Source: Pseudomonadota bacterium (lineage in GTDB: Bacteria > Pseudomonadota > Gammaproteobacteria > Burkholderiales > Burkholderiaceae_C). From it: 64,000 nt of DNA. Positions 45,376 to 62,092 of the stretch are shown piece by piece. Below the pieces are notes generated by a model. That model ran no database searches, was not told where the DNA came from, and saw only the letters and a program-made list of their open reading frames with translations. The DNA is taken from positions 80,276 through 144,275 of the forward strand of contig JAIUOW010000013.1 in assembly GCA_020161775.1 (NCBI GenBank). Reading direction: 5' to 3'. A program made the translations under genes and the position numbers. Each line of letters begins with the position of its first letter. Positions within the stretch are counted from its first letter, which is position 1.

Positions 45376-46362
45376 ATGAGCAGCTCTGAAGTCGTGCGCG
45401 AAGCGCAAAGCACCGAGAACTACAACGCCTCGGCCAAGCAGAAGGCAGGCGCCAAGCTGTCGCGCATTCCCGTCAAGGTGGAACAGGCCGAGGTGCTGAA
45501 AAAGCCCGAATGGATCCGCGTCAAGGCAGGCAGCCCCACCACGCGCTTTTACGAGATCAAGCAGATCCTGCGCGAGAGCAACCTGCACACGGTGTGCGAA
45601 GAGGCGTCGTGCCCCAACATCGGCGAATGCTTCGGCAAGGGCACGGCCACCTTCATGATCATGGGCGACAAGTGCACGCGCCGCTGCCCGTTTTGCGACG
45701 TGGGCCATGGCCGCCCCGATCCGCTGGACGTGAACGAGCCGGTCAACCTGGCCCGCACGATTGCAAAGCTGAAGCTCAAGTACGTGGTGATCACCAGCGT
45801 GGACCGCGACGACCTGCGTGACGGCGGTGCCGGCCATTTCGTGGAGTGCATCCGCCAGACGCGCGAACTGTCTCCGCTCACCCAGATCGAGGTGCTGGTA
45901 CCGGACTTTCGCGGCCGCGACGACCGGGCGCTGGAGATCCTGAAGGCGGCACCACCGGACGTGATGAACCACAACCTGGAAACCATCCCGCGCCTTTACA
46001 AGGAAGCGCGCCCCGGATCGGATTACCAGTTCAGCCTGAACCTGCTGAAAAAATTCAAGGCGCTGCATCCGGGCGTGCCGACCAAGAGCGGCCTGATGGT
46101 CGGCCTGGGCGAGACCGACGAGGAAATCCTTGACGTCATGCGCGACATGCGCGCGCACGACATTGACATGCTGACGATCGGCCAGTACCTGGCGCCCACG
46201 CTGAGCCACCTGCCGGTGCGCCGTTACGTACACCCGGACACCTTCAAGATGTTCGAGGCCGAAGCCTACAAGATGGGCTTCACGCATGCGGCCGTCGGTG
46301 CCATGGTGCGCTCCAGCTACCACGCCGACCAGCAAGCCCATGACGTGCTGAACTGTCAATAA
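45376..46362 (+). CDS. lipA: Lipoyl synthase (radical SAM), C-terminus altered by a mobile-element end
   Basis: A 328-residue radical SAM enzyme that inserts two sulfurs into octanoyl groups. The auxiliary cluster cysteines are in [13 protein letters not shown] and the radical SAM cluster in [28 protein letters not shown] and [11 protein letters not shown] near the end are conserved. The last two codons (Cys-Gln) and the stop come from the TGTCAATAA of the repeat that begins at 46354, so the native tail may have been replaced. All catalytic residues lie well upstream, so activity should be intact; the serine in the conserved RSSYHA is kept. Confidence 0.94.
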
Positions 46363-46550
46363 TCCATAGTTAATGAGATAAATCCGCAGTTAACGAGACA
46401 AATCCACAGTTAGATGGGTCACGAAAGTCAAAAAACTCAATTAAAACAATGATTTACTGAGGATTTAATCAAATTCAGCGTTGAAATTGAACTGGAGCAA
46501 GTGCCGTTGCGTCTGAGATCAACGGGTCTTCGAATTGCTAATTAGTGAGT
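46354..46550. repeat. Flanking repeat copy 1: transposon-end-like sequence with three 20-base units
   Basis: The repeat begins TGTCAAT, then carries three tandem 20-base units starting at 46361, 46381 and 46401 (consensus AATCCRYAGTTAAYGAGAYA, where the third is more diverged). AT-rich sequence follows (ACTCAATTAAAACAAT near 46438) to GATCAACGGGTCTTCG. A second, degenerate copy lies at 56502 in the same orientation. TGT termini with several ~20-base sites are typical of the ends bound by Tn7 TnsB, Tn5053 TniA or Mu transposases. No such transposase gene is in the window. The end lies exactly at the junction between core and accessory DNA. Confidence 0.7.
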
Positions 46551-46612
46551 GCAGGGCTCACAAGAGTTAGTAGAAAAAGTTGTTGAAGGTAGCCAGAAAC
46601 TTCTGCGGCGGC

Positions 46613-48109
46613 CTATTCAGCCGAGGTTTCGTCAAACGCGTCCGCCAGCCGCCCGCGCGACGCGCGCCGTGCCTGCAGCAACAGCGCAGTCGACCCCCAG
46701 CTTTGAAACGGCGAGCCCAGGAAGGAATCGAACAGGATGGCGGAGGTAGCCGGGTCGCGATTTCGTAGAACCGCGGCTTCCAGCAATTGCGCCAGGTCGA
46801 TCTGCCCCTTCTTGACCGCCGTGGACAGCTTCTCGAAGTCGATGATCGATATCGTGAAAATGTTTTCGAGCGGCAGGTTGCGGCGCGCATCGTCGTCGGG
46901 TGGATCGATTCTCCCGGGAGAATAGAGGCGCGCGAGTTGGGCTCCGCTTCCCAGGGCCAGCTCCCGGCTGGTGACGATCAGCAGGTAGTCCTGCGTGGCG
47001 GCTGCGCATTGCGGCAGCGGGCTGCTGTCACTGCGTATCGCCTTGCCGACCGCCCAGCCCTGCTTGATCGCGTCCCGCACACGCTTGGTCTTCAGGAAGG
47101 CCTGCGTCTCGTTGTCGGTGAGCAGCACGTCATCGCCGAACACGGACATCTTCGCTTCGATCAGGACATTGCAGCGTCCGCACGGGATGATGGCCTCCAC
47201 CTTGGGAGCGCTGCCGCCGGCGATGGCCTCGTATTGCGTTTCCGTGACGCACTGCGTCGATATGGCCTGTGCGAGTTCACACACGTAGTCCTCGAACAAC
47301 CTGCTGAACGGCTCTGTGTAGGTGCTGCCCAGGCGCGCGAGGCGCCAGTGGACGATCTCTTCGAGGCCTCGAGCTACCACCATCCGCTGCCACGGCACGA
47401 AGTCGCCGTTGCGCGACCTGAAAAGCGGGTAGCGTTTCAGGTGAGGGAACTCGTACAACTCCTGCCGCAGCGGGAGCGGCTCTTTCGCATGATCTGCCTG
47501 AAGGGCCCGCCGCAGGGCAGGCAGGTCGAGCGCCACCAGGTGCAGGAAGACGTCGATGCTGGCGCCGTAAACAGCGCGAAGCGGGTCGAAGAAATTGCGC
47601 GGAATGATTTGCCGGTTGTCGACCATCGCCGCGAACAGACTGAATGCCAGGTCCATGAAGTGTTCCGGCGACAAACCCAGCTCCTGGACGAATTGACGCC
47701 GCGAAGGGTGATTCGCGTTCTGCCTGGCCACCAGCGCCGGCAAGCGCAGGAATCCCCACCCTTCCGGACGCTGGAAGTCGAATTGCGGGAAGTGCCACCG
47801 CATCATCAGGTGCACCGGGGGCTTCTTGGCCGCGTAGTCTTTGCCCACCAGCTCCTGTACCCCGCCGCGCAGCCGCGCGAACTCTTCGTCGGTCACCCGG
47901 CGGCCGATGCGGATGCGCGTGTGCACGTCCTGCAGGGCCCATTTCACCAGCAGCAGGATGTTCCACGGCAAGATGTGCAGCGCCTCAACCTTGTCGGGAT
48001 ACTCCTTCCACAACAGGCGCAGCGCGGCGTCGACGATTGACGTGGCGCTATAGCGCCGCATCTCCTGGCGAAGTTGTTGGCGCAGCTGGGAAATCGCGAG
48101 TTCGCTCAC
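46613..48109 (-). CDS. Putative PD-(D/E)XK-like nuclease associated with the Wadjet operon
   Basis: A 498-residue protein not assigned to a named family. The N-terminal half is helical and contains KPPVHLMMRWHFPQFDF. Residues about 265-320 (EPFSRLFEDYVCELA ... KVEAIIPCGRCNVLIEAKMS) look like a PD-(D/E)XK core: a helix with Glu273, then Glu305 in a beta strand, then Glu318-x-Lys320. This is the layout of restriction-like and Card1/Can-type nucleases, though an acidic residue at the first position is Glu rather than Asp. It lies 57 bases after jetD on the same strand with no sign of its own terminator or promoter, so it may be a sixth gene of the jet transcript. It could instead be an independent single-gene defence system. 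Confidence 0.7.
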   Translation of the reverse strand: MSELAISQLRQQLRQEMRRYSATSIVDAALRLLWKEYPDKVEALHILPWNILLLVKWALQDVHTRIRIGRRVTDEEFARLRGGVQELVGKDYAAKKPPVHLMMRWHFPQFDFQRPEGWGFLRLPALVARQNANHPSRRQFVQELGLSPEHFMDLAFSLFAAMVDNRQIIPRNFFDPLRAVYGASIDVFLHLVALDLPALRRALQADHAKEPLPLRQELYEFPHLKRYPLFRSRNGDFVPWQRMVVARGLEEIVHWRLARLGSTYTEPFSRLFEDYVCELAQAISTQCVTETQYEAIAGGSAPKVEAIIPCGRCNVLIEAKMSVFGDDVLLTDNETQAFLKTKRVRDAIKQGWAVGKAIRSDSSPLPQCAAATQDYLLIVTSRELALGSGAQLARLYSPGRIDPPDDDARRNLPLENIFTISIIDFEKLSTAVKKGQIDLAQLLEAAVLRNRDPATSAILFDSFLGSPFQSWGSTALLLQARRASRGRLADAFDETSAE

Positions 48110-48165
48110 GCGGCAATGCTAAGGCAGTCAATCCATCCACCCGCCGCGAAACTGCCCTATGCAGG

Positions 48166-49320
48166 CTACAGACCTTCCTGCTCGGTCGTGAACGGATGGT
48201 GTTCGATGGCTGCAGCGATCTCCGTCCAGCAGGCCGCCATGGCGTAGTCACGCATGCGGCGCACGGTCTTGGGCGATGCGGGAAGCCGGCGCGATTCCGG
48301 GATCGAGGCCGGGTCCATGCGCCACGGCAACAACCTTCTTCCGTGCTGTTCGACCAACTTGGCGATGTGGGCAGCGATCCTGAATCCTCCTTCATCGTAG
48401 TCGCCCCAGTGGTAAACCGGCACGTCCTGATCGATCGATGCCAGCAAGCGCCCGAGCGCCGCACACCATGCCGGCGACGGCATGCCCGCGGAGAAGATGC
48501 GCAACTGCGGATCGTTGCAGTGCCTGCGCGCCGCTTCACGGAAATTGGTCTGGTTCTCGATGCTCAAGACCATCTCGGGCCGGGATTCCAGGCTCAACAC
48601 GGCGTCGGCCGCATAGCCCACGTACGGCGCATCCAGCAATCCTGTCACCCGTGTGCGGCGCATCGCAAGGTTGCCGGCGAATACCATCGGCTGGTCTTCA
48701 CGGAAGAGACCGAGCTCGCGCCAGACCTGTTGCTCTTCGCGCGGCGGCGACTCCACGTCGCCCACGAGAAGGACATCGAGCGGTCCGGAGAGCTTCTCAA
48801 TCCGTTTGCTGTCGTTGAATATCTCGGCGCTCACATTACGGATGGCCTCGTCACTCGTCTGCGTTCGAGATCGGCAGTGGTCGACGACTCGAACTGCGTC
48901 CAGCCACTTTCCGGTGTCCGTCACCGACGTGCCGCGCACCTTTCGAAGGAGCCGCCACTGCTCGAGAACCGTGGTGAGCACGGGGTGGCTCACCGTCTGG
49001 CCGGCGAGTTGTTCACGCGCTACCTGCAGCGTGGTTCCGGTAGTCGTCCTGCCCAGAAATGCAGCCAACGCCTCCAAGCGACCCAAGGCCACTCGGGTTA
49101 CCGTGCCGTTGCGCGTGTCCCAGGTCAGGACGACCGCGCCGTCGATCTCGGCCGCCCGCATGGTGGTGTCGAAGCTTTCCTTGGCCTGCAGCGAACGCAG
49201 CTCGGCGTACGCACGCAAGTCCCGGGTTGTGAGCGCGGGCGCCCGGACTCGCACGCCCGCGTCGGACTTTTCTCCGGCGACGAACAGCGTTTCCAGGCAT
49301 TGGCGCGCCAGGGCATCCAT
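48166..49320 (-). CDS. jetD: Wadjet nuclease subunit JetD
   Basis: A 384-residue protein matching JetD, the DUF3322 plus DUF2220 Toprim-type nuclease that cuts circular DNA once the Jet loop-extruding complex stalls. The N-terminal arm and wing domain is residues 1-200. The Toprim core shows VLSIENQTNF (Glu255) and VYHWGDYDEGGFRIA (Asp307-x-Asp309), the expected metal ligands. It starts two bases after the jetC stop. Nothing is truncated. Confidence 0.88.
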   Translation of the reverse strand: MDALARQCLETLFVAGEKSDAGVRVRAPALTTRDLRAYAELRSLQAKESFDTTMRAAEIDGAVVLTWDTRNGTVTRVALGRLEALAAFLGRTTTGTTLQVAREQLAGQTVSHPVLTTVLEQWRLLRKVRGTSVTDTGKWLDAVRVVDHCRSRTQTSDEAIRNVSAEIFNDSKRIEKLSGPLDVLLVGDVESPPREEQQVWRELGLFREDQPMVFAGNLAMRRTRVTGLLDAPYVGYAADAVLSLESRPEMVLSIENQTNFREAARRHCNDPQLRIFSAGMPSPAWCAALGRLLASIDQDVPVYHWGDYDEGGFRIAAHIAKLVEQHGRRLLPWRMDPASIPESRRLPASPKTVRRMRDYAMAACWTEIAAAIEHHPFTTEQEGL

Positions 49321-49322
49321 GC

Positions 49323-52300
49323 TCAGACGTTCCCGGCATCCGGATCGCCCGCACCCTCAGGATCGGCCGGCGGCTGGCGCTTGCGCAGCTCGTCGTCGAT
49401 CAATTTGGGGTTGAATTCCGGAAGGTCCATCCTGAACATCTGGCGAGTCTGCTCGCTGACATCGTGCGGCTCGAGATAGACCACGTTGCGATCGGCGTCC
49501 TTCAGGATGTCGCAGTAGCCGTGCAGGAACGCGGTGAGCGTCCCCAAATTCTCGCCCGGAGACGCCATCACCACCTGCAGGCCCAGCTCCTCGAGATACC
49601 GCATGGCCGCGATGATGTTGCTCATGTCCATCTTGTTAAAGGCTTCGTCCAGCAGGATGAGCCGAATGCCGTCCCGGTGCCCTCGCTCGAGCCGGTAGGT
49701 CGAAGCCAGAGCCGCGCCGGCAATCACGTACAGCGGCGCGCGATGCTCGCCGCCGGAGCCCGAGCCCAGCCGCTTGCTCAGATGGCCCGCAGCCTTCCGC
49801 TCACCCGTCACGGGATCTTCGCGCAGGATCTGGATGTCAAAGTCGAAGAACTCGCGGTAGTCGTCGAGAGGTGACTTGGCGCTGGCATTTCCGACGGCGA
49901 TCTTCTCGTCAAGCAGTTCCTTGAACTGCTGGGGCAGCTCGCCCGCGTCGCCCAGCAGGTCCTGGCCGGCTCCGAATTCGGCCACGTCCTCGATGAACTT
50001 GAGCAAGCTCTCGTGGGCGGGACGTTTGGTCTTCTTGAACTGGTAGCGCTCGCGATTGGTGAACATCGGGCTCTTGAGCAGCACCTCGTTCAGGTTGTCG
50101 AGGGTCGCGTCCAGCCATTTCAGGTTGCCGTGCAGCACCAGCGCCACGTCGTTGCGGAAGGTGGCCTGGGAAAGGCGATACGCCTCGTCCATCTGCTCGA
50201 CATAGCCCTGGAGCGTGGTGTCGTTGAGGTACTTGAGCCGGTCGGCGACCCAAGACCTTGCTTTGCGCCAGTCCTGAAGCACTTCAGGGAATATCGGGTC
50301 TTGATGCGCGGTGAGGTACTGCCCCAGTTTTCCGCTGCCCGCCGTTGCGTTGTTCGTGACGCGGATGCGGCAGTTCCTTGCGGCGCCCTCGCAGGCCGCG
50401 AGGAGTTGAGACTCGTCGTCTGGGAACTCCTCCAACAGCTTGTCCCAGCGCTTGGCCACCAGCGTGCGGTCGTAGCCTTCCGCGGATCGCGCCTCATGAG
50501 CCGCAGCGGTTGCAGCGTCAGCAGCCGCCTTAGCCTGATCTAACGCGGTGATGGCTCCCTCGAGCGTCGTCTGCGCTGATCCCTTGCTGGCCGCCAGGCG
50601 CACCAACTCACCCACCAGGCGCTCCGCCTCCTCGGCCCATTTCTTCTCTTGCTTGACGAGGTCGAGGTAGTCCTTGCTGGCGGTTTCCCCCAGCTTGCCT
50701 TCCGCCATGGCGGCAGCGTGAAGCGTGGTGTCACGCTCGTCGCAGATCCGGGCAAATCGCTTGAGGATTGCCTCCTCGCCCGAGAACAGCTGCATCTGGT
50801 CAAACAGCGTCTTGGCCCTGTCGCTGCGCGTCTTGGCCTGGGCGATGGCTGTGCGCAGCTTCGAAGCTTCTTCACGCAGCGCGCCCACATGCTCGGGACT
50901 GCCTGCTCCGATCTTGAATTGCGCCGGCCGAACCAGGCTCTTGCGGTCGATCTCCCCGCCGGTGTTGAGCATTCCGTCCGCGGTCAACGCGTGACGTGCT
51001 CTCAGGCACTCGTCATTGGTGGTGGCACGCATGGCGTCGCCGAACTTCGAGCGCAGGTAGTTCACCGCGGCAAGGTCGTCGCCCTGGATCAGCTCTGCCA
51101 CCGAACCTGCTATTGGCGACTTCTTGCCTTCGAAGCGGCTGGCCATCACAAACTTGGCGCCGAAGACCGCGCGGCCGCCGTCCAGACCCCGATACACCTG
51201 AAACGCGTCGCGCTCCGCTTTGTCGCCGCGCACCAGCAGCGCCTGGACGTTGGATGCCAGGTAACCCTCGATGACAGGTTGCCACTGTGGGTCGGTGATC
51301 TGAACCAGATCGCACACGGGCTGAGGGTCGAGGCCCGCATCCCGCAGTTCCTTCAGCAGTCGGGCGGCCGGCCCCTCCAGGGCCGCTCGACCCGTGGCGC
51401 CGCGCTGCAAGTTCTCTTCGATCGTGGCAGCCTGCCGAGTCAGTTCCTCCAGTGCATTCTCTATCTGGCGGCGTGCGTTGAAGAGCGTTGAGGCGGCATG
51501 TCCGACCGCCAGCACTGCGGGTCGAACACTCGAGCGGACCTGTTGCAGATCGCTGACGCCGTTCTCGGTCACCAGGATGTCCAGACCCGGCAGGCAGTTG
51601 GCCAGCGCCGTCTTCTCGCCTGGTATGAACTCGGACTGTGAGGCATCGGTCACGATGCGGCGCAGTGCCGAAGCGGTTTGGACCAATTCCCGCGCCTTCG
51701 CCTGAGCGGAGTTCCGCTGCTGCGAGGCTTCGGCTTCCAGTCCAGCGCTTTCCTGATGCGCTTGGTGCTTTTCCTTGAGCTGGCGGAAGTGATCGGACTT
51801 TTCCTGCGCTTCGCTCCGTGCACTGTCAGCCTTCTGATGGGCCAGGTTGGCTTGTTCGGAGGAGATCAGTGCGTCGTCTCTCCTACCCGTGGCGTCGTCG
51901 AAGCGCCGGGTTGCCTGACTTTGCTTCACGTCTTCGGCCATCGACCGCCAAGTCACCTGGGCGCAATGCTCCTGGTCTGCCTTGTCGAAATCGGCCCCAA
52001 TAAGCTGCAGGCTTTCGATCTTCGCTCGCACGCCGGCCACCATCTGCGACATAAGCTTGAACGAGTCCGTGACCTCTCGAAACTTCTTGATGTTGGTCTG
52101 GCGCGGCTCCAGCACCTGATTTCGCACAATCTGGTCGACCGACTTATCGAAGCGCATGCGCAATGCGAAGCGGAACGAGCGCACGAAGGTCTCGTACTGC
52201 GGGATGCCGCCCTTGCCGCGAAGCGCGAAAAGCGCGGCCCGGATGTAGTGCTCCGAATCCTGATGCAGCGGGTCTTCCCCGAGCGTCTTGGCGCGCTCCA

Positions 52301-52784
52301 GCAAGTGGTGCCGGAAGGTTTCCCAGGCACGGGGGTGCCGCTGTCCGTTGACCAGTTCGAGGTGATCGCCCATCGACAGCTCGGTTCCGCGAAGTACATA
52401 GCGGCCGCGCACCTCGAAGCGTTCCTTGTCGTGTGCGGCGTTGATGCACACGCCCATCGTGAGCAATTCGGAAGTGACTGAGTCCTTCCATATCAGCGTG
52501 ATGTAGCTGGTCGCGCTGTCGCGCACGCGCTCCGTCTCGCTGTCGCCGTACTGGCCGAGGCAATACGTGCGGATGGATCGCGTGTTCGCCATGTTTTCGT
52601 CGGCCTGCGCGTTGAACGCGATGAGGCGCTCGTTGCCGCCGCACATGGCGATCTGCACCGCGTCCAGCAGCGACGACTTCCCGCTGCCGTTCGGACCGAA
52701 GACACCCCAGATCTCGTCGAGCTTGATCTCGATCTCCTCGAAGAGGAAGAACTGAACGAGCTTGACGCTGATGAGTTGTTTCAT
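49323..52784 (-). CDS. jetC: Wadjet SMC-like ATPase JetC
   Basis: A 1,153-residue SMC/MukB-like protein. The Walker A is FGPNGSGKSS (residues 29-38), with the Q-loop region soon after. Long coiled coils surround a hinge-like middle domain (about residues 480-640; VIEGYLASNVQALLV, AVFGAKFVMASRFEG). The ABC signature LGSGSGGEHRAP begins near residue 1006, and the Walker B IRLILLDEAFNKMD has Asp1046-Glu1047. In Wadjet, JetABC extrude DNA loops and recognise small circles such as plasmids. The start overlaps the jetB stop by four bases. Confidence 0.92.
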   Translation of the reverse strand: MKQLISVKLVQFFLFEEIEIKLDEIWGVFGPNGSGKSSLLDAVQIAMCGGNERLIAFNAQADENMANTRSIRTYCLGQYGDSETERVRDSATSYITLIWKDSVTSELLTMGVCINAAHDKERFEVRGRYVLRGTELSMGDHLELVNGQRHPRAWETFRHHLLERAKTLGEDPLHQDSEHYIRAALFALRGKGGIPQYETFVRSFRFALRMRFDKSVDQIVRNQVLEPRQTNIKKFREVTDSFKLMSQMVAGVRAKIESLQLIGADFDKADQEHCAQVTWRSMAEDVKQSQATRRFDDATGRRDDALISSEQANLAHQKADSARSEAQEKSDHFRQLKEKHQAHQESAGLEAEASQQRNSAQAKARELVQTASALRRIVTDASQSEFIPGEKTALANCLPGLDILVTENGVSDLQQVRSSVRPAVLAVGHAASTLFNARRQIENALEELTRQAATIEENLQRGATGRAALEGPAARLLKELRDAGLDPQPVCDLVQITDPQWQPVIEGYLASNVQALLVRGDKAERDAFQVYRGLDGGRAVFGAKFVMASRFEGKKSPIAGSVAELIQGDDLAAVNYLRSKFGDAMRATTNDECLRARHALTADGMLNTGGEIDRKSLVRPAQFKIGAGSPEHVGALREEASKLRTAIAQAKTRSDRAKTLFDQMQLFSGEEAILKRFARICDERDTTLHAAAMAEGKLGETASKDYLDLVKQEKKWAEEAERLVGELVRLAASKGSAQTTLEGAITALDQAKAAADAATAAAHEARSAEGYDRTLVAKRWDKLLEEFPDDESQLLAACEGAARNCRIRVTNNATAGSGKLGQYLTAHQDPIFPEVLQDWRKARSWVADRLKYLNDTTLQGYVEQMDEAYRLSQATFRNDVALVLHGNLKWLDATLDNLNEVLLKSPMFTNRERYQFKKTKRPAHESLLKFIEDVAEFGAGQDLLGDAGELPQQFKELLDEKIAVGNASAKSPLDDYREFFDFDIQILREDPVTGERKAAGHLSKRLGSGSGGEHRAPLYVIAGAALASTYRLERGHRDGIRLILLDEAFNKMDMSNIIAAMRYLEELGLQVVMASPGENLGTLTAFLHGYCDILKDADRNVVYLEPHDVSEQTRQMFRMDLPEFNPKLIDDELRKRQPPADPEGAGDPDAGNV

Positions 52785-53446
52785 ACGACGTTCTCCCCGG
52801 AATCGTTCGTCTCCGTCCCTTCCTCCGCCTCACCTGTCGGTGGAGCCGCTTCGGCGAATTGGGCAAGGCGAAGGAGCGCCGTCTCGCTCAGCACGTCAAC
52901 GATCCCGGGACGGATCGCCACGACAAAAGGCTGATCGCGTTCTTCCTGGTCCTGGGGTTCGTAGTTCTCGTCGGCCATCGTTCGCGCAATGCCCCAGCGC
53001 TTCATCGTCCGCATCAGGTCCTCCAGCTTTCCGCCGAGGGACATCTGCCGATTGGTGCTGACGCGATGCTTTTCCCCCAACTCGACCAGATCGCAGATCA
53101 CTTCGCCGTCATCATTCAGCCGGCCCGCTCGAGCCGACTCGTAGTAGATGTTCAACAGCACCAACGCCATCAATGTCTGCTCGGTCGTCGCCTGCGACGA
53201 TTTGGCATGCCGGGGGATGCCACAGGCGAAACGCAGCCGCCGGTTGACAACGACTTTCACGCCGAGGGGCGCCAGCACGTGGGAGAAATCCCGCTCGTAC
53301 TGCTCCACCAGCGAGTACGACGTTCGACTCTTGATATCGGCCGCATACAGGACCTGCTCGCTCACGAGGCGGTAGGCCGTCGCCTCGAGCAGGTCCGCAG
53401 TGACGATGGACTTTGTCTTCTCTTCGATGGCATCCCAGTGACTCAT
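52781..53446 (-). CDS. jetB: Wadjet subunit JetB (DUF4194, MukE-like)
   Basis: A 221-residue protein of the DUF4194/JetB family, a winged-helix (KITE-like) partner of the SMC and kleisin subunits. Features are AYRLVSEQVLYAADIKSRTSY, VVNRRLRFACGIPRH and LMALVLLNIYYESARAG, then a Glu-rich tail (ETNDSGENVV). It overlaps jetA and jetC by four bases each, so the genes are translationally coupled. Confidence 0.88.
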   Translation of the reverse strand: MSHWDAIEEKTKSIVTADLLEATAYRLVSEQVLYAADIKSRTSYSLVEQYERDFSHVLAPLGVKVVVNRRLRFACGIPRHAKSSQATTEQTLMALVLLNIYYESARAGRLNDDGEVICDLVELGEKHRVSTNRQMSLGGKLEDLMRTMKRWGIARTMADENYEPQDQEERDQPFVVAIRPGIVDVLSETALLRLAQFAEAAPPTGEAEEGTETNDSGENVV

Positions 53447-54900
53447 AGCGCCCCTCCTTGTTGCTTTTTGCGTGTGCGCACGACGAAGGGCGGGTGAGAA
53501 ACCCAGTCGCCTTCGCGCTCCCCTTCTGTCTTTTCGACGGTATAGCCTCTTGCGAGCGTCATGGCATCGAGCTTCAGATTGCGGCTCTCCGACGACATGG
53601 CCAAACCGACTGCGCTCAACGCCTGGATTGCGCGCACGTCGCCTATGCCCTGGACCTCCAACCGTTCGCTGACCACCTCGTCGGCGCCGCGGAGGTTGGT
53701 CAGCACGTACGCCGTCAACTTCGGAGGGGTCATCGCCCGTGCATCCCGTGCGCGCAGCATGAGGCGCGCACGCGCTTGCTCTTCGGCGGACACAACGACC
53801 GTTCGCAAGGCCGCCGGCGGGGGTCGCGGAATCACCCTCTTCGGCTCCGCGAGCCGGTCGGTGCTGAGCAATTCGCCAGGCGCGAACGGTGCGGCCTCGG
53901 CCGCGCCAGCAAGCACCCCGGTGATGGCGTGCTTGATTAAGTGGTCAAGCGGCCGAAGTGCGCGCAGCCGGAAGTCGAGAAACACCAGCGCTTGCTTGTT
54001 CGCACGACGCACCTCTTCGTCCAGGCGGTCAAGGTATTCGTCGATCCGCCGCAAGTCGATGAGGCGCTGGATGTCGCGCTCGAACAGCAGCTCCGCACGG
54101 CGCATGTCGCCATTGGTGCGCTTGGCGCTGTACCAGGCGACCAGACGCTCACGCAGCTCGATCGAGGTGTGAATGTGCTCAACCGTCTGGATGATCTCCT
54201 GCTTGCGGGATATCGGGTGCTCCCGCGTTCGCAATTCACCGTAGTCGCCAATGAACACCCGCTGGATGAACCGGTCGAAATAGGTTCGCACATAGGTCGC
54301 CGTGGAGATCGTCGGATCCATTGACAGCATCAGTTCGCGCACGCTGTTGCCGGTGTTGCGCACGTGCTCCAGCAGGCTGCGGGTTTGACTTGCAGCTTCT
54401 TGGAGGGTGTCGCCTTCCGCGTTTTCGCGCACGATCAGTCGCAAGTTGGCTTCGATGGATCGGACTTTGCCGGCGACGAACACAGGGCCGGTCTGGGCGA
54501 ATTCCACGAGCAGGCCCATGAAGTGCGCGACGACCGGTGGCATCGTAACCATTTGCTTGACCCCGCGCAGTTCGACGCGCAGCCATCCGGCTTCCTTCAA
54601 CTGGTGAAAGTCTTCGTTTGCGCGAATCACCAATGGCGTCAGCGGCGGCTCTTCATTGGCAGCCGCGGCTCTCGCGTCCAGCGCTGCCAGTTCGTCTTCG
54701 ATGTCCCGAGCGATCTCTCTCCAGTGAAAGCCGTGGCTGGGCGGAAACGGCGCGTCGGGACCGAAACGCCGCTCGTACAGCGCGCACAGCAATTGCCAGT
54801 GCTGCTGCCGATTGGGCGCCGCCAAGGGAGCGAACAGGCGGCTTGGGATACGCCCGAACAAGCCTCTGTCGGCGGTGGTCACTAGCTCGGGAATAGCCAT
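53443..54900 (-). CDS. jetA: Wadjet kleisin-like subunit JetA (divergent)
   Basis: A 485-residue protein starting MAIPELVTTADRGLFGR. N-terminal FGRIPSRLFAPLAAPNRQQH and the helical middle (NLRLIVRENAEGDTLQEAA; MRRAELLFERDIQRLIDLRR) fit the JetA/MukF-like kleisin role. It does not look like the DUF3375 form used by some Wadjet types, so it belongs to another JetA branch and the subtype is left open. The family call rests largely on its position first in a jetA-B-C-D order. It overlaps the upstream WYL gene by 19 bases. Confidence 0.75.
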   Translation of the reverse strand: MAIPELVTTADRGLFGRIPSRLFAPLAAPNRQQHWQLLCALYERRFGPDAPFPPSHGFHWREIARDIEDELAALDARAAAANEEPPLTPLVIRANEDFHQLKEAGWLRVELRGVKQMVTMPPVVAHFMGLLVEFAQTGPVFVAGKVRSIEANLRLIVRENAEGDTLQEAASQTRSLLEHVRNTGNSVRELMLSMDPTISTATYVRTYFDRFIQRVFIGDYGELRTREHPISRKQEIIQTVEHIHTSIELRERLVAWYSAKRTNGDMRRAELLFERDIQRLIDLRRIDEYLDRLDEEVRRANKQALVFLDFRLRALRPLDHLIKHAITGVLAGAAEAAPFAPGELLSTDRLAEPKRVIPRPPPAALRTVVVSAEEQARARLMLRARDARAMTPPKLTAYVLTNLRGADEVVSERLEVQGIGDVRAIQALSAVGLAMSSESRNLKLDAMTLARGYTVEKTEGEREGDWVSHPPFVVRTRKKQQGGAL

Positions 54901-55730
54901 GGGCGCAGCTCCTTGGAGTTGGCGACCGCGATCTGGTAGTCGGGCGGTCGTTGGCGAAGCGGGTCGGTCGCCGCGCGAAGATCCTGGATCAGGTAGGCGA
55001 CCAATGCCGCTCGGCACGTCTGGCGGCGTGCAGAGGTGCCGCCGAAGTTCTCGAACCGAACTACTTCTTCCTGCATGGGTGTCAGCCGCGGATGGGGCAC
55101 CAGGAAGACTTCGACGTGCGTAGACCAAGCTACGTCGTCCTCGACGCTATGCGTCGCAACGTCGGTGGTCGATTGAATCCCAACGATCCGGCCGAGCGCA
55201 AAGTCGCGGAAGCCCTCGTTCTGCTTGCAATAGCCTCGGACGTGCCAACGGCGCCCGGCGCGCACCAGATTGTGCGGCTCGATCGTTCGTTGATGAGGCT
55301 CGGGATGCTTCATCGATCGATACATCACGTCCACCGCCGTCGATTCGCGGATTGCGCGCCGCAGTGTCGCGAATGCTAGCGGGGCGGGTACGTTGAAGTC
55401 GGGGAAGACATGCATTCCCTCTTCGCCCTTCGCGTGGAGCGACGGGATCCGGGTGAGTGCAAGGTATGAAGCGAAGGTTTCCTCCGCGCGCGCCTCTTCC
55501 TGTCGTACGAGCGTACGGAAGAAGACAGCCGTTGCGATATGCCGGCGGCCAACGGAATCCCAAGCCATCCAGTCCGGACAGAGGTCCCGCAGCTCCTTGA
55601 TCCATTCACTGGCTCGGACCGGACTGAGGTTGAATAGCTCCATGACCCGAGCGCGGCCCAGTTCGCCTTCCCACGTCAGTACGTTCAGGAGCGGGCGCAG
55701 CCGGCTGGGGATTTCACGTTCACGGAACAT
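54882..55730 (-). CDS. WYL-domain transcriptional regulator of the jet operon
   Basis: A 282-residue regulator. The N-terminal winged helix (REIPSRLRPLLNVLTWEGEL ... ALFNLSPVRASEWI-type segment) is followed by the WYL domain (VDVMYRSMKHPEP; RTIEPHNLVRAGRRWHVRGY; EGFRDFALGRIVG) and the C-terminal WCX extension. WYL proteins frequently control phage-defence operons, sensing nucleic acid or nucleotides. It is upstream of jetA, overlaps it by 19 bases and has operator-like half-sites across its start. Autoregulation of the whole operon is the natural inference. Confidence 0.87.
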   Translation of the reverse strand: MFREREIPSRLRPLLNVLTWEGELGRARVMELFNLSPVRASEWIKELRDLCPDWMAWDSVGRRHIATAVFFRTLVRQEEARAEETFASYLALTRIPSLHAKGEEGMHVFPDFNVPAPLAFATLRRAIRESTAVDVMYRSMKHPEPHQRTIEPHNLVRAGRRWHVRGYCKQNEGFRDFALGRIVGIQSTTDVATHSVEDDVAWSTHVEVFLVPHPRLTPMQEEVVRFENFGGTSARRQTCRAALVAYLIQDLRAATDPLRQRPPDYQIAVANSKELRPWLFPS

Positions 55731-55773
55731 ACGAAAAATCGTATCATACGAATATCCGTACTGTCCAGTTCAA
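55730..55773. promoter_or_regulatory. Operator-like half-sites and promoter at the jet operon / DUF2026 divergence
   Basis: Alternating half-sites TACGA (55730-55734), TCGTA (55739-55743), TACGA (55747-55751) and CCGTA (55756-55760) recur every 8-9 bases and form three overlapping inverted repeats. The first overlaps the start codon of the WYL gene. On the minus strand TATGAT (55743-55748) could be a -10 and TTGAAC (55768-55773) a -35, 19 bases apart; the transcript would then start only a few bases before the WYL start codon. Binding of a repressor here would block it. Confidence 0.6.
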
Positions 55774-55818
55774 GCTTTGGACTGTGACGCAGGGCCCCAA
55801 TCTAGATGGAGGAATGAA

Positions 55819-56451
55819 GTGGCGCGACGTCTCTTGCTCCCATTACCCGACTATCAGCGTATCTACCAGGTGATGTACAGCGTTTTGGAGGCGTCGGAAA
55901 TCGCCATCACGCACCGCTCCTGCATTTACTTTGCCGCCGTTGGAACGTTGATCCTCCGGGACCACTACGAAATGCCTGCCACCATCAGTGCCGGATGCAT
56001 GGCGCTGATGGTGGACGAGCCAAGTGCGAACGTGGTGGTCTACGGACGTAAGCAAGACGGAGCGTTTACCAGCGACAACAAAGCGTTCCACGCGTGGTGC
56101 CAGTGCGATGGCTGGCTAATCGATTTCATGGCGCCCATCATGGGTGTTGCCTTGCGCGAAGACGGCGTGGCGTGGGACGTCCCTCAGCGCATGCTGCAGA
56201 AGCGTCTAGAAAATCGCAAGGAGCATTTGGGCCAAATTCAGCACTTGGGGGATTTCTACGCGTCGCATGACCCTGCACTCACGGAGTCGCTGCTGGATGG
56301 CCAGTCCGTCCAGTTCGAGGATTTGGCCAACGTTTGCCTGCAGTGGTTTCGTAGACCCCCTAAGCCGCTCAGAGAGATGATGATGGGCGACACGCACGCG
56401 ACGCCCAAGAGACTCATTGCCCGCGCGCCCGCAATTGAAGGAGTCTGGTGA
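55819..56451 (+). CDS. DUF2026 protein with Cys/His/Asp arrangement
   Basis: A 210-residue protein with a GTG start at 55819, well placed after GGAGGAATGAA. LLLPLPDYQRIYQVMYSVLE, CIYFAAVGTLILRDHY and FHAWCQCDGWLIDFMAP match DUF2026, of unknown function. Cys35, His91 and Asp102 are spaced as in the transglutaminase/NlpC-like cysteine hydrolase folds, so a hydrolase activity is plausible but unproven. It is divergent from the WYL-jet operon and shares its control region. Its stop overlaps the start of a truncated gene. Confidence 0.78.
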   Translation: MARRLLLPLPDYQRIYQVMYSVLEASEIAITHRSCIYFAAVGTLILRDHYEMPATISAGCMALMVDEPSANVVVYGRKQDGAFTSDNKAFHAWCQCDGWLIDFMAPIMGVALREDGVAWDVPQRMLQKRLENRKEHLGQIQHLGDFYASHDPALTESLLDGQSVQFEDLANVCLQWFRRPPKPLREMMMGDTHATPKRLIARAPAIEGVW

Positions 56452-56510
56452 AACGCAGCAACCGCACGACCATCGGAGTTGAACTTGATGCCATCGCCCA
56501 GTGTCAATAG
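56448..56510 (+). pseudogene. 5' stump of a gene cut off by the second flanking repeat
   Basis: A GTG at 56448, overlapping the DUF2026 stop (GTGA) and five bases after GAAGGAG, opens a frame of 18 codons (MKRSNRTTIGVELDAIAQ) that runs into the repeat. The repeat then adds Cys-Gln and TAG. A good ribosome-binding site and coupled start say this was a real second gene of the DUF2026 operon, truncated by the element. The lost product is unknown. Confidence 0.6.
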
Positions 56511-56690
56511 TCCATAGTTAATGAGCCAAATCCGCAGTTGGATAGATCACAAAGTTCAGAAAACTCAATTAAAACAATAGGTTACTAGGGATTTGGTCAA
56601 ATTCGTCGTTGAAATTCGCTGCCTACCCGGCGCCGGGGCAAGTGCCGTGCGTCTAAGATCAATGGGTCTTCGGGTTGTTGAGTGCTGAGA
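56502..56690. repeat. Flanking repeat copy 2: degenerate transposon-end-like sequence
   Basis: This is a direct, same-orientation copy of the 46354 repeat. It begins TGTCAAT and has 20-base units at 56509 and 56529, one fewer than copy 1. It shares ACTCAATTAAAACAAT and GATCAATGGGTCTTCGG with small substitutions and indels, and carries a short GC-rich insertion (CCCGGCGCCGGGGC near 56626). The divergence means the two ends did not arise by a recent duplication of one site. Confidence 0.68.
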
Positions 56691-56722: not shown

Positions 56723-57685
56723 TCAGTCGTTTTTGGGCGCTGGCCTTGCCTCAACTAAATGGATGTTCTTTGACAGCGACTGGCCGGAAAACTTCCGCTT
56801 GATCGCATACTTGAGCCATCGCAACGCAGACCAAAAAAGTCGCCGGACGTCAAGCAGCGGCGGATCGAAGGGTACGATTTCCGCAAATGCCAGTTCCAGC
56901 AGCGACCACTGCTTCCGTTCGTGATCGGTAAGTTTGATGGACTCGGCCCGTAGGCGCAGTTCCAAAACACCTCGGATCGGGACGTGAAACGCGATATCTG
57001 CGCCTTCGTAGCTCGTGCAATGCACTGCACATACCTTCCCCAGATGATCAAATAACGGTCCACCACTGTTGGCGCCATAGATGGGAACATCAGTTTGAAC
57101 ACAAGGAAATGGCAGCATGACCGTATCCCTCAGCGTCTCGAATATTTCAGAAACGAATCCGAAACTTTGGCGCGCAGCAAATTGGAGCGAGGTGTCCACG
57201 TCCATTTCCCTGATGGTCAGTTCGCTGCGAAAGCGGGCGGTAGTAGTACCTGGCCATTTCTCGGAATCAAATTCCTGATTGCCGTCGAGCACCGCAAAGC
57301 TGAAGACGGGATCACCGGATTTGACCTCGTCCAGCGTCATGGTCAGAGGTATCGTGGATCGATCATGATCCGGCGCGGCTACGCACGTCTCGCTGAGGGC
57401 CAGATCAAACTGGGGATGCTTGTCCGTTTTCACAAAAGTGCGGGCGACAAAACTGCGATCTGAAAAAGTTTGGATGGCAAAGATCGGTCCGCGGTCTACA
57501 CCGTCGGGTCCGATGTTCTCGGCAACTACATGCCATGCCGTCACCAAGTGACCAAACTCGCTCACCCAGAAACCAGTACCGATCAAGTGCGCATCCCGAG
57601 TAACAGGATCGACCCTAAAAACGGGAGCTATTCCTTCGAGAAGCTCGGGGCGAAGTCTTTGCCCAGGATGGAGGTCATCACTCAT
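56723..57685 (-). CDS. Trypsin-like serine protease
   Basis: A protein of about 320 residues. GTGFWVSEFGHLVTAWHVV gives the catalytic His52, HPQFDLALSE the Asp94 and IYGANSGGPLFD the Ser207, numbered from MSDDLHPGQ. This is a chymotrypsin-fold protease without signal peptide, so probably cytosolic. The C-terminal ~90 residues form an unassigned Lys/Arg-rich tail. An alternative start MAGQSFDAQ at 57721 adds 12 residues; neither start has a strong ribosome-binding site. Cytosolic trypsin-like proteases are found in defence islands, but no partner gene is recognised here. Confidence 0.7.
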   Translation of the reverse strand: MSDDLHPGQRLRPELLEGIAPVFRVDPVTRDAHLIGTGFWVSEFGHLVTAWHVVAENIGPDGVDRGPIFAIQTFSDRSFVARTFVKTDKHPQFDLALSETCVAAPDHDRSTIPLTMTLDEVKSGDPVFSFAVLDGNQEFDSEKWPGTTTARFRSELTIREMDVDTSLQFAARQSFGFVSEIFETLRDTVMLPFPCVQTDVPIYGANSGGPLFDHLGKVCAVHCTSYEGADIAFHVPIRGVLELRLRAESIKLTDHERKQWSLLELAFAEIVPFDPPLLDVRRLFWSALRWLKYAIKRKFSGQSLSKNIHLVEARPAPKND

Positions 57686-57796
57686 GGTCGCATTTTGTGC
57701 GTCGAACGACTGGCCGGCCATAGAGCGTCATGGCTCGATGCCGAAAGACAGATAACCCCCATGCGTAGTGCACTACACACACTTTCACGACATTGA

Positions 57797-58027
57797 ATGC
57801 GCCGTCCTAAGGAGCCAACCACAGTTAGTAGTCGCGGCTGGTCATCATCCCATACTCGGTCGAATGCTGTCGACGAAAAAATTGCTGAAGCGCAAGAACC
57901 GTGCATCGACTCTCATGCAGAGCCGACCCTCGCAGAGATGCTCGCAGCATTCGATCCCAATAGGCATGGCGGCGAAGTGATGGTCGTGAGTGCGGCGGGC
58001 AACGAAGCGTTTGCTGTCGTGATGTGA
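57797..58027 (+). pseudogene. MazE/AbrB-type antitoxin remnant
   Basis: A 76-residue frame whose second half, EPTLAEMLAAFDPNRHGGEVM, resembles the C-terminal toxin-binding tail of MazE-family antitoxins (the pattern LxELLAxFDPxxHGGEVM). The first half lacks the AbrB DNA-binding motif, and no MazF-like toxin frame follows. It may be a decayed toxin-antitoxin locus. The start codon is not certain. Confidence 0.4.
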
Positions 58028-58085
58028 TCTGCTGCCGCGCCCTCCGGACGAGTGGCTTCCGCCCTGTTTCTACAATTGCCGCAAC

Positions 58086-58289
58086 ATGGGCCATAGGTGT
58101 ACAACGTTTGCCCCTAAAAAGCCCGAGGACACCAAGGAGAGCAGCTTGAAGCCCGCATTGCATCCTGATCGCACAGGCCGAGGCGCGGCAAGCGCGCTTC
58201 CTCACCTCGCCTTTCAAGAACTCTCGCCAGGCCAGTCCAGGATCAACTTAAAAGAGCTCGACACCGAGGGCTGGGCAAGGAGCGATTGA
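58086..58289 (+). CDS. Small hypothetical protein
   Basis: A 67-residue frame, not recognised. It ends in TGA that overlaps the next ATG by one base, which hints at coupling with the following gene. The frame can be read further upstream without an obvious start. The rest of the 57,722-58,288 gap holds only the antitoxin remnant; otherwise I see no gene in it. Confidence 0.3.
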   Translation: MGHRCTTFAPKKPEDTKESSLKPALHPDRTGRGAASALPHLAFQELSPGQSRINLKELDTEGWARSD

Positions 58290-58723
58290 TGACTGCCATT
58301 CCGACAATGACACCGCGCATGAAACACGCTTTGTCCGTATTGGCCGAGCGAGGCGACAGAGCGTTGTATCGCTTGCATAGCGGCCTGTGGTTTCGTGAAT
58401 CAGATGCCGAGCCTGGCAGTCACCGCTGGGAACGGTTTAGAAACGATGAACGGCCATACTACGGCGGCTACCTATGGAATGTTCCGGGAAAACGTGTAGG
58501 AACCATGCAGGTTATCTGGCTTCCCGATGAATCCACAATGGTTCTCGCACAGACAATACAGGCTTTAGCCCGCCGAGGGATACTGCGTTTGGTTGGCCCG
58601 ACAAAGAAGGAGTTTGATGGCTACGTCGGCAAAACACGCGCGGTGCTCACGGCTACTGGGATGAATGCACGGGACGCAACGCCGCCTCCCGCAAGACAGC
58701 CGTTGCGCTTGGTCAAAGGGTAG
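58289..58723 (+). CDS. Hypothetical protein, 144 residues
   Basis: Not recognised. ATG at 58289 follows AAGGAG by six bases. The protein starts MTAIPTMTPRMKHALSVLAE and has a possible winged-helix-like N-terminus, then an aromatic patch (ERPYYGGYLWNVPG) and a helical stretch (MVLAQTIQALARRGILRL). It converges on the shortened SIR2-like gene. Confidence 0.55.
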   Translation: MTAIPTMTPRMKHALSVLAERGDRALYRLHSGLWFRESDAEPGSHRWERFRNDERPYYGGYLWNVPGKRVGTMQVIWLPDESTMVLAQTIQALARRGILRLVGPTKKEFDGYVGKTRAVLTATGMNARDATPPPARQPLRLVKG

Positions 58724-58739
58724 CTGTAAAGGTGCAGGT

Positions 58740-59204
58740 TCAATACCAATTCAGCCGGGCCGCAGAGTCTTCCAAGGAGTCCAAGGTCTTTTGCGCCAAT
58801 GCAGAGGTGGCACCCACCAAGCCAGTGATAACGTAACCCATCTTCACCAAGTCTGCGACCGCCCTATGGGCGCGAGTTGGAAGCTTGATGCCTTCTTCTC
58901 GCTCCTCCTCGTTGGGCTCCCAGTACGCTCGAAGCAGTTGCTGCCGCTCAGTCGGCGTCTTAGCCACGGCATCCAAAAGTTCCGCGTAGTCAGGCTCGCG
59001 CCCTGTGTGCGTTTCGTACCAAGCAGCGGGATCAGGCTCACATTCCAACTTGGCCAGCGCGGCGACCTTTCGTACCAGCTCCAAGGTGATCTCCCAGCCG
59101 GTGGGGATTTGAGCCGCTCTCGACACCCCCGAGCCGAGCATGACCGCAAACACGCCTTTGTTGGCGTGAATTGAAAAGGCAAGCGAAGTAATAGGATCGA
59201 TCAT
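58740..59204 (-). pseudogene. Shortened SIR2-like (NAD-binding) defence gene
   Basis: A 154-residue protein whose first ~120 residues match the N-terminal part of SIR2-domain defence proteins: MLGSGVSRAAQIPTGWEI is the NAD-binding start of the fold and is followed by YAELLDAVAKTPTERQQLL. After VADLVKMGYV the usual VTTNFDRLLE segment with the catalytic asparagine is absent. An unrelated-looking tail (GLVGATSALAQKTLDSLED) follows directly. An internal in-frame deletion or a fusion is likely, so NAD hydrolysis is probably lost. Confidence 0.62.
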
Positions 59205-59335
59205 TGACGTAGCCTAAGCAGAAGGAGAAGATTCTCCACGCCAGCAACGCCGCCACACAGACGGTTCGCGAGCAAGAAGCCTGATTCCGGGACTTGGGAT
59301 TGCAACTCAATCAAGAATGATACGGACGAAGCAAC

Positions 59336-61099
59336 ATGGCAATAATTGATCATCTGGCGGAGTTCCCTCTACCGCAGCACTTGCTACCGGCAAAACTGCG
59401 TGAACTATTAAGCCCAATCGGAACCGCTCCAGAGGAGCGGGTCGAGGTCGCCTGCGAATTCGAGATTGACCACCACGGTCCAAGCTACGAGGCCGCACAC
59501 ATGCTAATGGCAGTAGTACCGGACTATGTCGATAGCCCTCTTCCAATTCTGGATGAGGCGAGTGACGGAGTCGTCTCATACTCCGTTCCTGTGCTTGGTG
59601 GGAAAGGAGATTCTGTTCACTTCACGCCATCTGTTTCTGGGTATGACTATGTCGTTGCCTCGTGGGGCGATGGCTCCTACTACACCTTCCATCTTGCGGA
59701 GAAGGTGTGGATGACGCTGGGATTAACTCCGCGCTGTATTGGCAATGATCAGCAGCGCCTTGTCTACGATGATCTGGGCTTGCCTGAATTCAACGTTGCC
59801 GAAGGCGAGATTTCGTTCGAGTATCACTATCACGCATCGCGCAGCATCTCTTGGCGCATGTCCAATTCGCATCTGCGAAAGTACCTATGGATGCGGGGAG
59901 CCCGTGGCGTTCGCGCGTTCTTTTACGAAGCACGAATCAGCGACTCTGCAGAAGTTCGCATGCTTATGAAAGGGGACGAGCACATAAGCCTGCGCCCAGA
60001 TGGCGACTGGTGCGAGGTCGATATCCGCGAGCATCTTGGCGGACTCTTGCTTCAAGTGTGGGCAACCGTAGATGCCGTGAGTTGCAGCTTGTCTCCCGAG
60101 CAGACGGCGGAAAATCTACTTTGGCCCGGCTTTGATGGAGAAATGACTCACCGACGGGCAGATGCACTTACGGATATCTCTTGGGTTTATCTCGACGATC
60201 TATTTCTGGAGAAGTACGAGCAGAGCGGCTTCTACGACACGACGCCGATTCTTGCACATGGCAGATGGCTGTGCAGCCCATCGTACCGAGGTCAGTGGAG
60301 TTTTACAGAATGCGAGCGTGTAGGCAGAAACCTGGTGCGCGTGCCTATGCGAGAACTATACAAACCGAAGCCAGATCAAGAAATCCTCCATGCGCACCGA
60401 CATGCGACAGATCCGCAGGTGATTCAGCGGTCAAATATGGGTGAAGAGCATATCCCTGCGAAAGTGCAGAGGATGTTGGACCAGATGCTGGCTTTTGGAG
60501 ACCATTTATCTGTCCTCGCAAGAGGGTATGGAATCGATAGGCAGCCAGCCGAGATCGTGACTTTTGATCGCGGTGAGTTGGGCCGCAATGGCTGGCGAGC
60601 TTACCCTCAACTACAGCGCCTCGCCCAAGTGGCACCACTTCAAATGAGCGAGCAAGCGATGCTTGTTCGTTGCAAGAGCCTCCACGAACTGTGGCAAGTT
60701 ATTCCCAATGGACTTCTGCGAAGACTACTACAGGTGGCGGGTTGTCCGCAGCCTGAAATTCGAGACCTTGGAAGCCTGAAGCTACTGCAAGGGTTGCACA
60801 ATATTGTGGCGCGTCTCGACGCCTCCCAAGAAGATGCTGCGTCATTCGCAAGTACACAGGAGCCGCACGGGTGGAAAGAGAGAAATTCAAGTTTGGCCGC
60901 GCTTTTTGTGCTGAACGACTTGCGTATTGCAGATGCGCATGACACTTTTTCGAATGCCGTTCCACGGCTCCAAGATTTAGGATTCGACACAGCCACACTC
61001 CGACAGGGTCATGGACGAGCACTGGACTTCGTATTCGACTCGACGATAGACTCGTTCTCTAAGATTAATGGAGCACTTGGAAGCTTGATCGCTCGCTAG
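59336..61099 (+). CDS. Hypothetical protein, 587 residues, with C-terminal HEPN-like motif
   Basis: Not recognised overall. Start ATG at 59336. The N-terminal ~330 residues are rich in acidic and aromatic residues without membrane segments and may be beta-rich. The C-terminal region contains LNDLRIADAHDTF, an R-x4-H motif (Arg530, His535) in the context typical of ApeA-like HEPN domains. It is followed by a HEPN-like gene on the same strand. Base composition is AT-richer than the core genes, suggesting transfer. Confidence 0.6.
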   Translation: MAIIDHLAEFPLPQHLLPAKLRELLSPIGTAPEERVEVACEFEIDHHGPSYEAAHMLMAVVPDYVDSPLPILDEASDGVVSYSVPVLGGKGDSVHFTPSVSGYDYVVASWGDGSYYTFHLAEKVWMTLGLTPRCIGNDQQRLVYDDLGLPEFNVAEGEISFEYHYHASRSISWRMSNSHLRKYLWMRGARGVRAFFYEARISDSAEVRMLMKGDEHISLRPDGDWCEVDIREHLGGLLLQVWATVDAVSCSLSPEQTAENLLWPGFDGEMTHRRADALTDISWVYLDDLFLEKYEQSGFYDTTPILAHGRWLCSPSYRGQWSFTECERVGRNLVRVPMRELYKPKPDQEILHAHRHATDPQVIQRSNMGEEHIPAKVQRMLDQMLAFGDHLSVLARGYGIDRQPAEIVTFDRGELGRNGWRAYPQLQRLAQVAPLQMSEQAMLVRCKSLHELWQVIPNGLLRRLLQVAGCPQPEIRDLGSLKLLQGLHNIVARLDASQEDAASFASTQEPHGWKERNSSLAALFVLNDLRIADAHDTFSNAVPRLQDLGFDTATLRQGHGRALDFVFDSTIDSFSKINGALGSLIAR

Positions 61100-61219
61100 A
61101 AATTTGATGGGCGCTCAACGGGCGTCAACCGAACTCCTTTTCCAAGGCCCCGCATGTGTACCTCGTCCAGGATACGCATTCGCCGAATCAGCAATTTGTT
61201 CAAGTAGATTGGATTGACC

Positions 61220-61789: not shown

Positions 61790-61793
61790 CAAA

Positions 61794-61931: not shown

Positions 61932-62092
61932 ACAGAAATGGGCGAGCACTAGACTTTCCGAATACCGTCGCGTCCAGATACGGCGGCTTCTTTGGACCTA
62001 CCCGGCGCAATACCGACTACGGTGCGAAACTTCCGCATAGTCGAGAATGGCGTCTTCAAAGCCTCCACCGCCAACTTTGATAGGAAAGCCGA

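Follow-up and report, generated by a model that had tools for sequence, protein, structure and literature searches.

Direct repeats around a Wadjet block as probable left ends of Tn7-like elements at the lipA gene of a Burkholderiaceae_C bacterium

Introduction

Tn7 encodes TnsABCDE and targets glmS; its TnsA, Mu-type TnsB, AAA protein TnsC and TniQ-domain protein, the several sites of about 20 bp in each of its ends, the 5-bp target duplication and the chromosomal insertion at the 3′ end of a conserved gene, at a near-fixed distance, are the features used here for comparison, drawn partly from sections of PMC11406308 and PMC8649781 and partly from general background. This paper concerns a stretch of 64,000 nucleotides (the window) from a Pseudomonadota bacterium of the family Burkholderiaceae_C, in which two direct repeats lie on either side of a Wadjet block just downstream of lipA, the lipoyl synthase gene. 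The repeats are very probably the left ends of two insertions of a single Tn7-like subtype, from a lineage that targets the 3′ end of lipA; the island they belong to in this genome looks decayed. The window is taken from assembly GCA_020161775.1, contig JAIUOW010000013.1 (C13 hereafter), positions 80,276–144,275 of the forward strand, and ends where the contig ends; the genome (G000) measures 4.36 Mb and is the sole representative of its genus among the genomes searched.

Other described elements share part of these features. According to the portion of PMC10293859 considered here, the Tn6022/AbaR group targets comM and carries TniQ (369 aa), TnsF and a remote TnsE near the left end. In the sections of PMC8649781 that were available, Benler et al. 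(2021) report Wadjet among the cargo of Tn7-like elements (34 by JetD) and arrays of about 20-bp repeats marking both ends, and the island described here resembles those elements in both respects, with Wadjet cargo and arrays of about 20-bp repeats at its ends.

Structure of the two repeats

The lipA gene (45376–46362, forward strand) was identified by its Radical_SAM and LIAS_N domains, and its C-terminus was compared with those of relatives; copy 1 of the repeat supplies the final 9 bases of its frame, comprising two codons and the stop. Copy 1 (46354–46550, forward strand) aligns with the left, tnsA-distal ends of the relatives' elements and is interpreted as such an end, and copy 2 (56502–56690, forward strand) as a further left end of that subtype. 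A first-pass annotation, made from the sequence alone, had described both as imperfect direct repeats beginning with TGTCAAT and carrying 20-base units of exact period, three in copy 1 and two in copy 2, and this description stands: copy 1 combines a 27-nt tip with three units resembling TnsB sites (starting at 46361, 46381 and 46401), copy 2 has two (56509 and 56529), the spacing is exactly 20 bases, and the final unit of each copy is degenerate, agreeing with the consensus of that annotation at 14/20 and 15/20 positions, respectively. The copies are 80% identical across an ungapped core of 106 nt and 75% identical across a longer gapped stretch; they share a sharp left edge, the similarity beginning exactly at TGTCAAT, and a further similar block near the right end. 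Since they are only about 80% identical and differ in the number of units, they are not a recent duplication. The 5-base flanks are TGAAC at copy 1 and CCCAG at copy 2.

When at most three mismatches were allowed, the 20-base unit occurred at four sites in the whole 4.36-Mb genome, three within the copies and one, inverted, at positions 403–422 of another contig (C30), and the reversed-pattern control gave no site in the same search. A weight matrix of the unit was built from tnsA-side units alone (C30 and four relatives) and is thus independent of both copies; with it, the units of the copies scored 14.3, 18.6 and 14.0, against a null maximum of 11.0 and a 99% point of 7.1 in 3000 random 220-bp windows of the seven fetched loci. 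In an earlier scan for left ends, the units of the window itself had contributed to the matrix, and the scoring with the independent matrix is therefore the independent test.

A search of 299 family genomes with the whole repeat at the DNA level matched the own copies alone and failed to pick up the diverged ends of five among the seven close relatives described below, these five being part of the sample; a search of this kind is thus not sensitive enough for a missing match to count as absence. Corresponding searches of plasmids and E. coli genomes gave no match outside the own genome. The tip pattern, with up to two mismatches, had one match besides the own copies in 369 genomes of the class (L007) and one in viral contigs (L008), both judged to be chance, and three matches of the two-unit pattern in genome contigs (L009–L011) were judged from their context to be chance as well.

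An inverted end on a second contig

Near the start of C30, an inverted pair of units is accompanied by a 27-nt tip, TGTGAAGATTCCATAGTGGGGGAGACA, which is similar to the tip of copy 1. Inward of this end lies a reading frame for a truncated TnsA, an N-terminal fragment that is 74% identical over 92 aa to the TnsA of the related genome G238 and was itself matched by Pfam at E 0.01, below the cut-off. The end and the adjoining tnsA fragment have the arrangement of a Tn7-type right end. On C30 the right end is followed by the 3′ portion of an AraC-type gene, then by EamA and ptsI; ptsI also stands beside the right ends in the relatives G189 and G168, and in G001 lipA is followed, after about 600 bp that include a further reading frame, by EamA. 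In G010 (L022), which belongs to another genus, lipA and ptsI are convergent and about 70 bp apart, an uninserted junction of the kind that the first-pass annotation had proposed looking for at lipA in related genomes. With lipA on C13 and EamA–ptsI on C30, synteny indicates that the two contigs probably lie on either side of one island.

The own genome's transposase is represented by the truncated TnsA fragment on C30 only; no fitting tnsB was found in the assembly, within which the gap between C13 and C30 is unseen. As its own transposase genes were not found, we class the island as a decayed one instead of an intact transposon; it looks decayed and has probably lost its own transposase. The three Mu-transpos_C loci of the same genome (on C5, C6 and C25) were discarded as possible parents of the element, since the surrounding 18–19 kb contain no matching unit; for C25, the sequence outside its tnsA also differs. 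The C25 locus (L017) encodes a full TnsA about 33% identical to that of G238, with matches to TnsB, TnsC and TniQ alongside and a different end sequence, and the locus on C5 (L016) gave no TnsA match.

Related elements in the family

The C30 TnsA fragment was used as the query against 399 genomes of the family and matched in 16 of them, its own included; the identity was 54–78% in seven of the other 15 (the close relatives) and 35–43% in the remaining eight. Unit-like sequences lie just outside tnsA in five close relatives (G238, G099, G168, G189 and G728), and a scan for clustered units located the opposite, left end in G238, G099 and G189, with the units exactly 20 bases apart and each end within the 3′ end of lipA. 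The ends are inverted, with matched left and right arrays in these three genomes and right tips with a unit in G168, G728 and G058; two right tips start with TGA rather than TGT (G189 and G058), and no right end was found in G744. Target duplications of 5 bp were identified in six of the seven close relatives, among them G168 and G728, whose ends are on different contigs, and G058, whose right end lies 1.4 kb from tnsA.

All seven close relatives encode tnsA, tnsB, a TniB-type tnsC and tniQ, as found by tblastn and blastp, and Pfam supports the four genes in all three relatives checked (G099, G189 and G238). In G189 and G238, both the N- and the C-terminal domain of TnsA exceed their cut-offs, and in G099 the C-terminal domain falls below it. 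Some copies are broken: tnsB is in pieces in G189 and split in G099, and tnsA is split in G728. In the fuller relatives, the genes follow the order tnsA–tnsB–tnsC (TniB)–tniQ at the right end and are transcribed inward. The proposal of the first-pass annotation that the repeats are Tn7-type ends is thereby borne out, both by the inverted C30 end beside a tnsA fragment and by relatives that join such ends to TnsA, TnsB, TniB and TniQ; elements with such ends, a TnsB-type gene and 5-base duplications, which it had suggested as a check, are present in related genomes.

lipA as the candidate attachment site

The lipA gene was located in all 15 TnsA-bearing genomes. A TGT tip with units is present at its end in 7/7 close and 1/8 distant relatives (G157), and if eight tips were spread randomly over 15 genomes, the chance that all seven close relatives would hold one is 0.0012. 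The distance from the tip to the Tyr codon of the SSYHAD motif is 36 bp for copy 1 and 44, 38, 38, 40, 41, 38, 38 and 38 bp for the seven close relatives and G157, the seven spanning 38–44 bp. The survey of lipA loci covered, besides the 15 TnsA-bearing genomes, 27 of 28 relatives (L047 was left out), with G014 in both sets; none of the 27 scored relatives has a comparable end at lipA, two with single units scoring 10.3 and 9.6, under the null maximum and over the 99% point, being counted as negative.

In eight of nine insertions, the first in-frame stop codon of lipA lies inside the element, and in the remaining one (G168) the tip is just past the natural stop. The tip on the lipA side thus supplies the stop codon, and therefore LipA changes only in its last few residues. 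Stops in all three frames within 47 nt occur in 8/10 left tips versus 1/6 right tips (G058 excluded); the corresponding shuffle means were 3.4 for the left tips (P 0.003) and 1.5 for the right tips (P 0.81), and the P of 0.003 overstates the case because the tips are related to one another.

TniQ and the left-side protein

Compared with Tn7, the lipA elements differ in several respects: the target is lipA and the tnsA-distal end faces the target gene, the insertion falls inside the last codons in 8/9 cases, TnsC is of the TniB type, TnsE is not recognised by Pfam, and TniQ is 336–378 aa long in six relatives (310 aa for the frame in G728), rather than the 508 aa of the TnsD of R721. The short TniQ is a likeness to Tn6022, as is an additional large left-side gene, in the location reported for remote TnsE genes in the part of the Tn6022 description considered (here the TnsE identity is that of a candidate). 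Unlike Tn6022, the lipA elements have no shared TnsF-like gene beside tniQ, and their target is lipA, which is kept, instead of comM. When frames of at least 80 aa within 5 kb past tniQ were compared in six elements (G728 left out), none was common to more than two, and only two weak pairwise matches appeared (E 0.001–0.03), TnsF itself not being used as a query. Since no TnsF-like gene is common to the elements, the short TniQ may read lipA alone or together with the left-side protein.

This protein, of 525–588 aa, is conserved on the left (lipA) side in 6/6 elements whose left side was read (G168 is not among them), at L088:3050–4813, L080:18177–19943, L077:1991–3649, L109:1526–3214, L105:1619–3349 and L106:1023–2600, and the sequences are 40–55% identical to the first in the alignment. 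No Pfam family was assigned to it (six of six scanned), no NCBIfam family (three of six scanned), and it gave no match to the TnsE of R721. It does match an unnamed 602-aa protein of an Acinetobacter plasmid (hhalign probability 92, E 6e-7), and in a class-wide search with the left-side protein, two of 369 genomes matched (E 4e-17, partial, and 1e-3). In the own genome no homologue was found, with 3 of 17 first-look candidates scored. The left-side protein is a plausible candidate for a TnsE-like target selector. The 602-aa homologue (L115:8557–10365, Acinetobacter seifertii plasmid NZ_CP059551) directly follows genes annotated as nucleotidyltransferase, ThiF, Mov34/MPN/PAD-1 and SAVED-domain genes, which we take to be CBASS-like.

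Cargo of the island

Because copy 1 occupies the lipA site shared with the relatives' elements, the Wadjet and GapS1 genes behind it are cargo of the island. The gene adjoining copy 1 (46613–48109, reverse strand), which had been called nuclease-like, belongs to the GapS1 family of antiphage genes (NCBIfam NF047931, E 4e-104, above the cut-off); PADLOC and Pfam gave no match for it, and a literature search for GAPS1 found no paper. On the same strand follow jetD (48166–49320), jetC (49323–52784), jetB (52781–53446) and jetA (53443–55128), identified by PADLOC as JetD1, JetC1, JetB1 and JetA1, a complete Wadjet type I system; JetA also matches the Pfam family JetA; its frame is drawn from the earliest start, with the PADLOC match setting in at residue 86. 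Beyond jetA lie a gene for a WYL-domain regulator (54882–55730, reverse strand; Pfam WYL) and a DUF2026 gene (55393–56451, forward strand; Pfam), whose frame is likewise drawn from the first start and whose domain spans residues 150–352. The enclosed WYL, jetABCD and DUF2026 genes are thus those the first-pass annotation had named. Wadjet and the GapS1-family gene stand together in one block.

A short reading frame (56448–56510, forward strand) overlaps the stop of the DUF2026 gene and is cut after 18 codons by copy 2; it appears to be the start of a gene truncated by that copy, and no homologue of it was found, nor was it seen after the DUF2026 relative in L050. Beyond copy 2, a second and AT-richer cargo stretch (56723–63626) holds a trypsin-like peptidase, several family-less genes and DUF5677, and is possibly another defence-type block; the GC content is 0.662 in the window up to copy 1, 0.622 in the Wadjet block and 0.554 after copy 2. 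The translated last bases of the window read like the C-terminus of a transposase, presumably of the IS3 type, which would explain the contig break there.

Among ten cargo proteins of four relatives, PADLOC gave one clear match, to a type IIG restriction-modification gene (L079:9667–12714) in the lipA element of G099, and two partial ones; because only one of the ten is clear, the lineage as a whole is not claimed to be a carrier of defence genes. The lipA element of G238 (L076–L078, G238:C1, about 29150–72220) is 43 kb long, and its cargo includes a reading frame of 3171 aa.

Discussion

The identification of the repeats as left ends of a lipA-homing, Tn7-like subtype draws on sequence comparison, namely the ends themselves, their position at lipA, the relatives that combine TnsABC and TniQ with target duplications, and the C30 end. 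On the model of Tn7, TnsB would bind the units of about 20 bases at both ends, TniQ would mark the conserved coding sequence of lipA, TnsC would join the TnsB-bound ends to the TniQ-marked gene, and TnsA and TnsB would carry out the insertion, about 38 bp away from the SSYHAD codons and with duplication of 5 bp; it is on this analogy that we infer which protein reads lipA. In the own genome, the island would run from lipA on C13 through the Wadjet/GapS1 block and copy 2 to beyond the window, and probably on to the inverted end by the truncated tnsA on C30. The first-pass annotation had taken the repeat pair as the boundary of the block, and this part does not hold: both copies are the left end in the same orientation, so as direct copies of one end they cannot bound one Tn7-like transposon, whose right outer boundary is on another contig, and the island is longer than the block. 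Two of the origins it offered fit: decay of an element, and separate insertions of two elements alike in kind. Copy 2 is the mark of another insertion, by a closely related element; the simplest account appears to be not a single clean insertion but the arrival of two elements of the same subtype, followed by deletion of parts that included most of the transposase genes. The join of C13 and C30, the order of events in this genome and the immobility of the island are likewise what we infer.

Several observations weigh against this interpretation. The join of C13 and C30 is by synteny only, the contig ends having no shared overlap, and the flank of the C30 end (CCGCG) matches that of neither copy; because the 5-base flanks differ, no pairing of a left with a right end in the own genome is proven to represent a single insertion. 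Next to the C30 end is a truncated AraC-type gene, and in those loci of the relatives that were tested no such gene was seen downstream of lipA. No right end was detected before copy 2, the best unit score in 55901–56510 being 7.6. Among the relatives, G744 yielded no 5-bp target duplication, and its lipA end is the weakest, the best unit there scoring 9.2, under the null maximum, with the tip still at the usual place. The duplication test sought a 7-mer in about 1.7 kb, for which a chance match is expected in about one region in ten, and G099 has one extra match in this test besides the tip. Lastly, G157 has a lipA tip though its TnsA is distant; the tip is possibly a remnant or belongs to a diverged sub-lineage. 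In G157, the lipA tip is on C82 (L104) and the sole TnsA match (41%) is on another contig.

That the repeats bound one composite or non-autonomous unit, moving as a piece, would suit the fact that they flank exactly the Wadjet block, but they are direct, whereas the ends are inverted in the six relatives with both ends found, and their flanks differ (TGAAC versus CCCAG); we regard this as quite improbable. Still less probable are ends of the IS21 or Tn5053 type. Such ends have TGT tips and repeated sites, and TnsC of the lipA elements is indeed of the TniB type; against them stand TnsA with matches to its N- and C-terminal domains, TniQ and a fixed chromosomal gene as the target. The likeness to Tn5053 extends to the TniB-type AAA protein, TniQ and repeated sites in the ends, and the differences are the presence of TnsA and a chromosomal gene target in place of the plasmid resolution sites given for Tn5053 in the part of PMC11406308 consulted. 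A RIT-type reading was dropped once TnsA appeared. There is a negligible probability that the repeats represent an RNA gene or the normal intergenic or regulatory DNA that follows lipA: copy 1 does directly follow lipA, but copy 2 is not near it, Rfam gave no match in 40000–64000 of the window, the folding of copy 1 is unremarkable (z −1.0), no comparable units occur at lipA of the 27 scored relatives, and the TnsA-linked ends in relatives refute the idea for practical purposes, so that ordinary sequence after lipA with no transposase link, the outcome named beforehand as fatal to a transposon origin, is excluded.

A question within the two-insertion account is how copy 2 arrived. The second element may have entered the first one's cargo without targeting, instead of homing to lipA in tandem with subsequent loss of the right end of the first; this is a variant of that account and not exclusive of it, and we give it slightly less than an even chance. 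Copy 2 follows a frame cut after 18 codons, no right end is seen before it, and some such elements are reported, in the portion of PMC10293859 considered, to have TnsE for a second route; on the other hand, copy 2 is oriented like copy 1, as tandem homing would give, and the other flank of its element was not found. A further proposal, which is tentative and which we would hold somewhat more doubtful than true, is that a separate Tn7-like lineage homes to lipA with a short TniQ and no TnsF-type partner, and that its lipA-side end is shaped to stop translation in any frame and so sits harmlessly in the last codons; it is supported by the three-frame stops in 8/10 left versus 1/6 right tips and by the stop within the element in 8/9 insertions.

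A word search found no lipA in the main texts of PMC10293859, PMC8649781, PMC11406308 and PMC10702557 (supplements were outside its scope), and among the matches listed in literature searches no use of lipA as an attachment site by Tn7-like elements was found, which is no proof of novelty. Its 3′ end is a candidate natural site to be added to glmS, yhiN, comM, parE, tRNA genes, guaC, yciA, ffs and rsmJ, as far as the sections of the literature consulted list such sites. Since several insertions are resolved to the base pair and the short TniQ has no obvious partner, these elements can serve to test what in TniQ reads DNA, and in the family Burkholderiaceae_C the end of lipA is a place to seek island cargo, including anti-phage genes.

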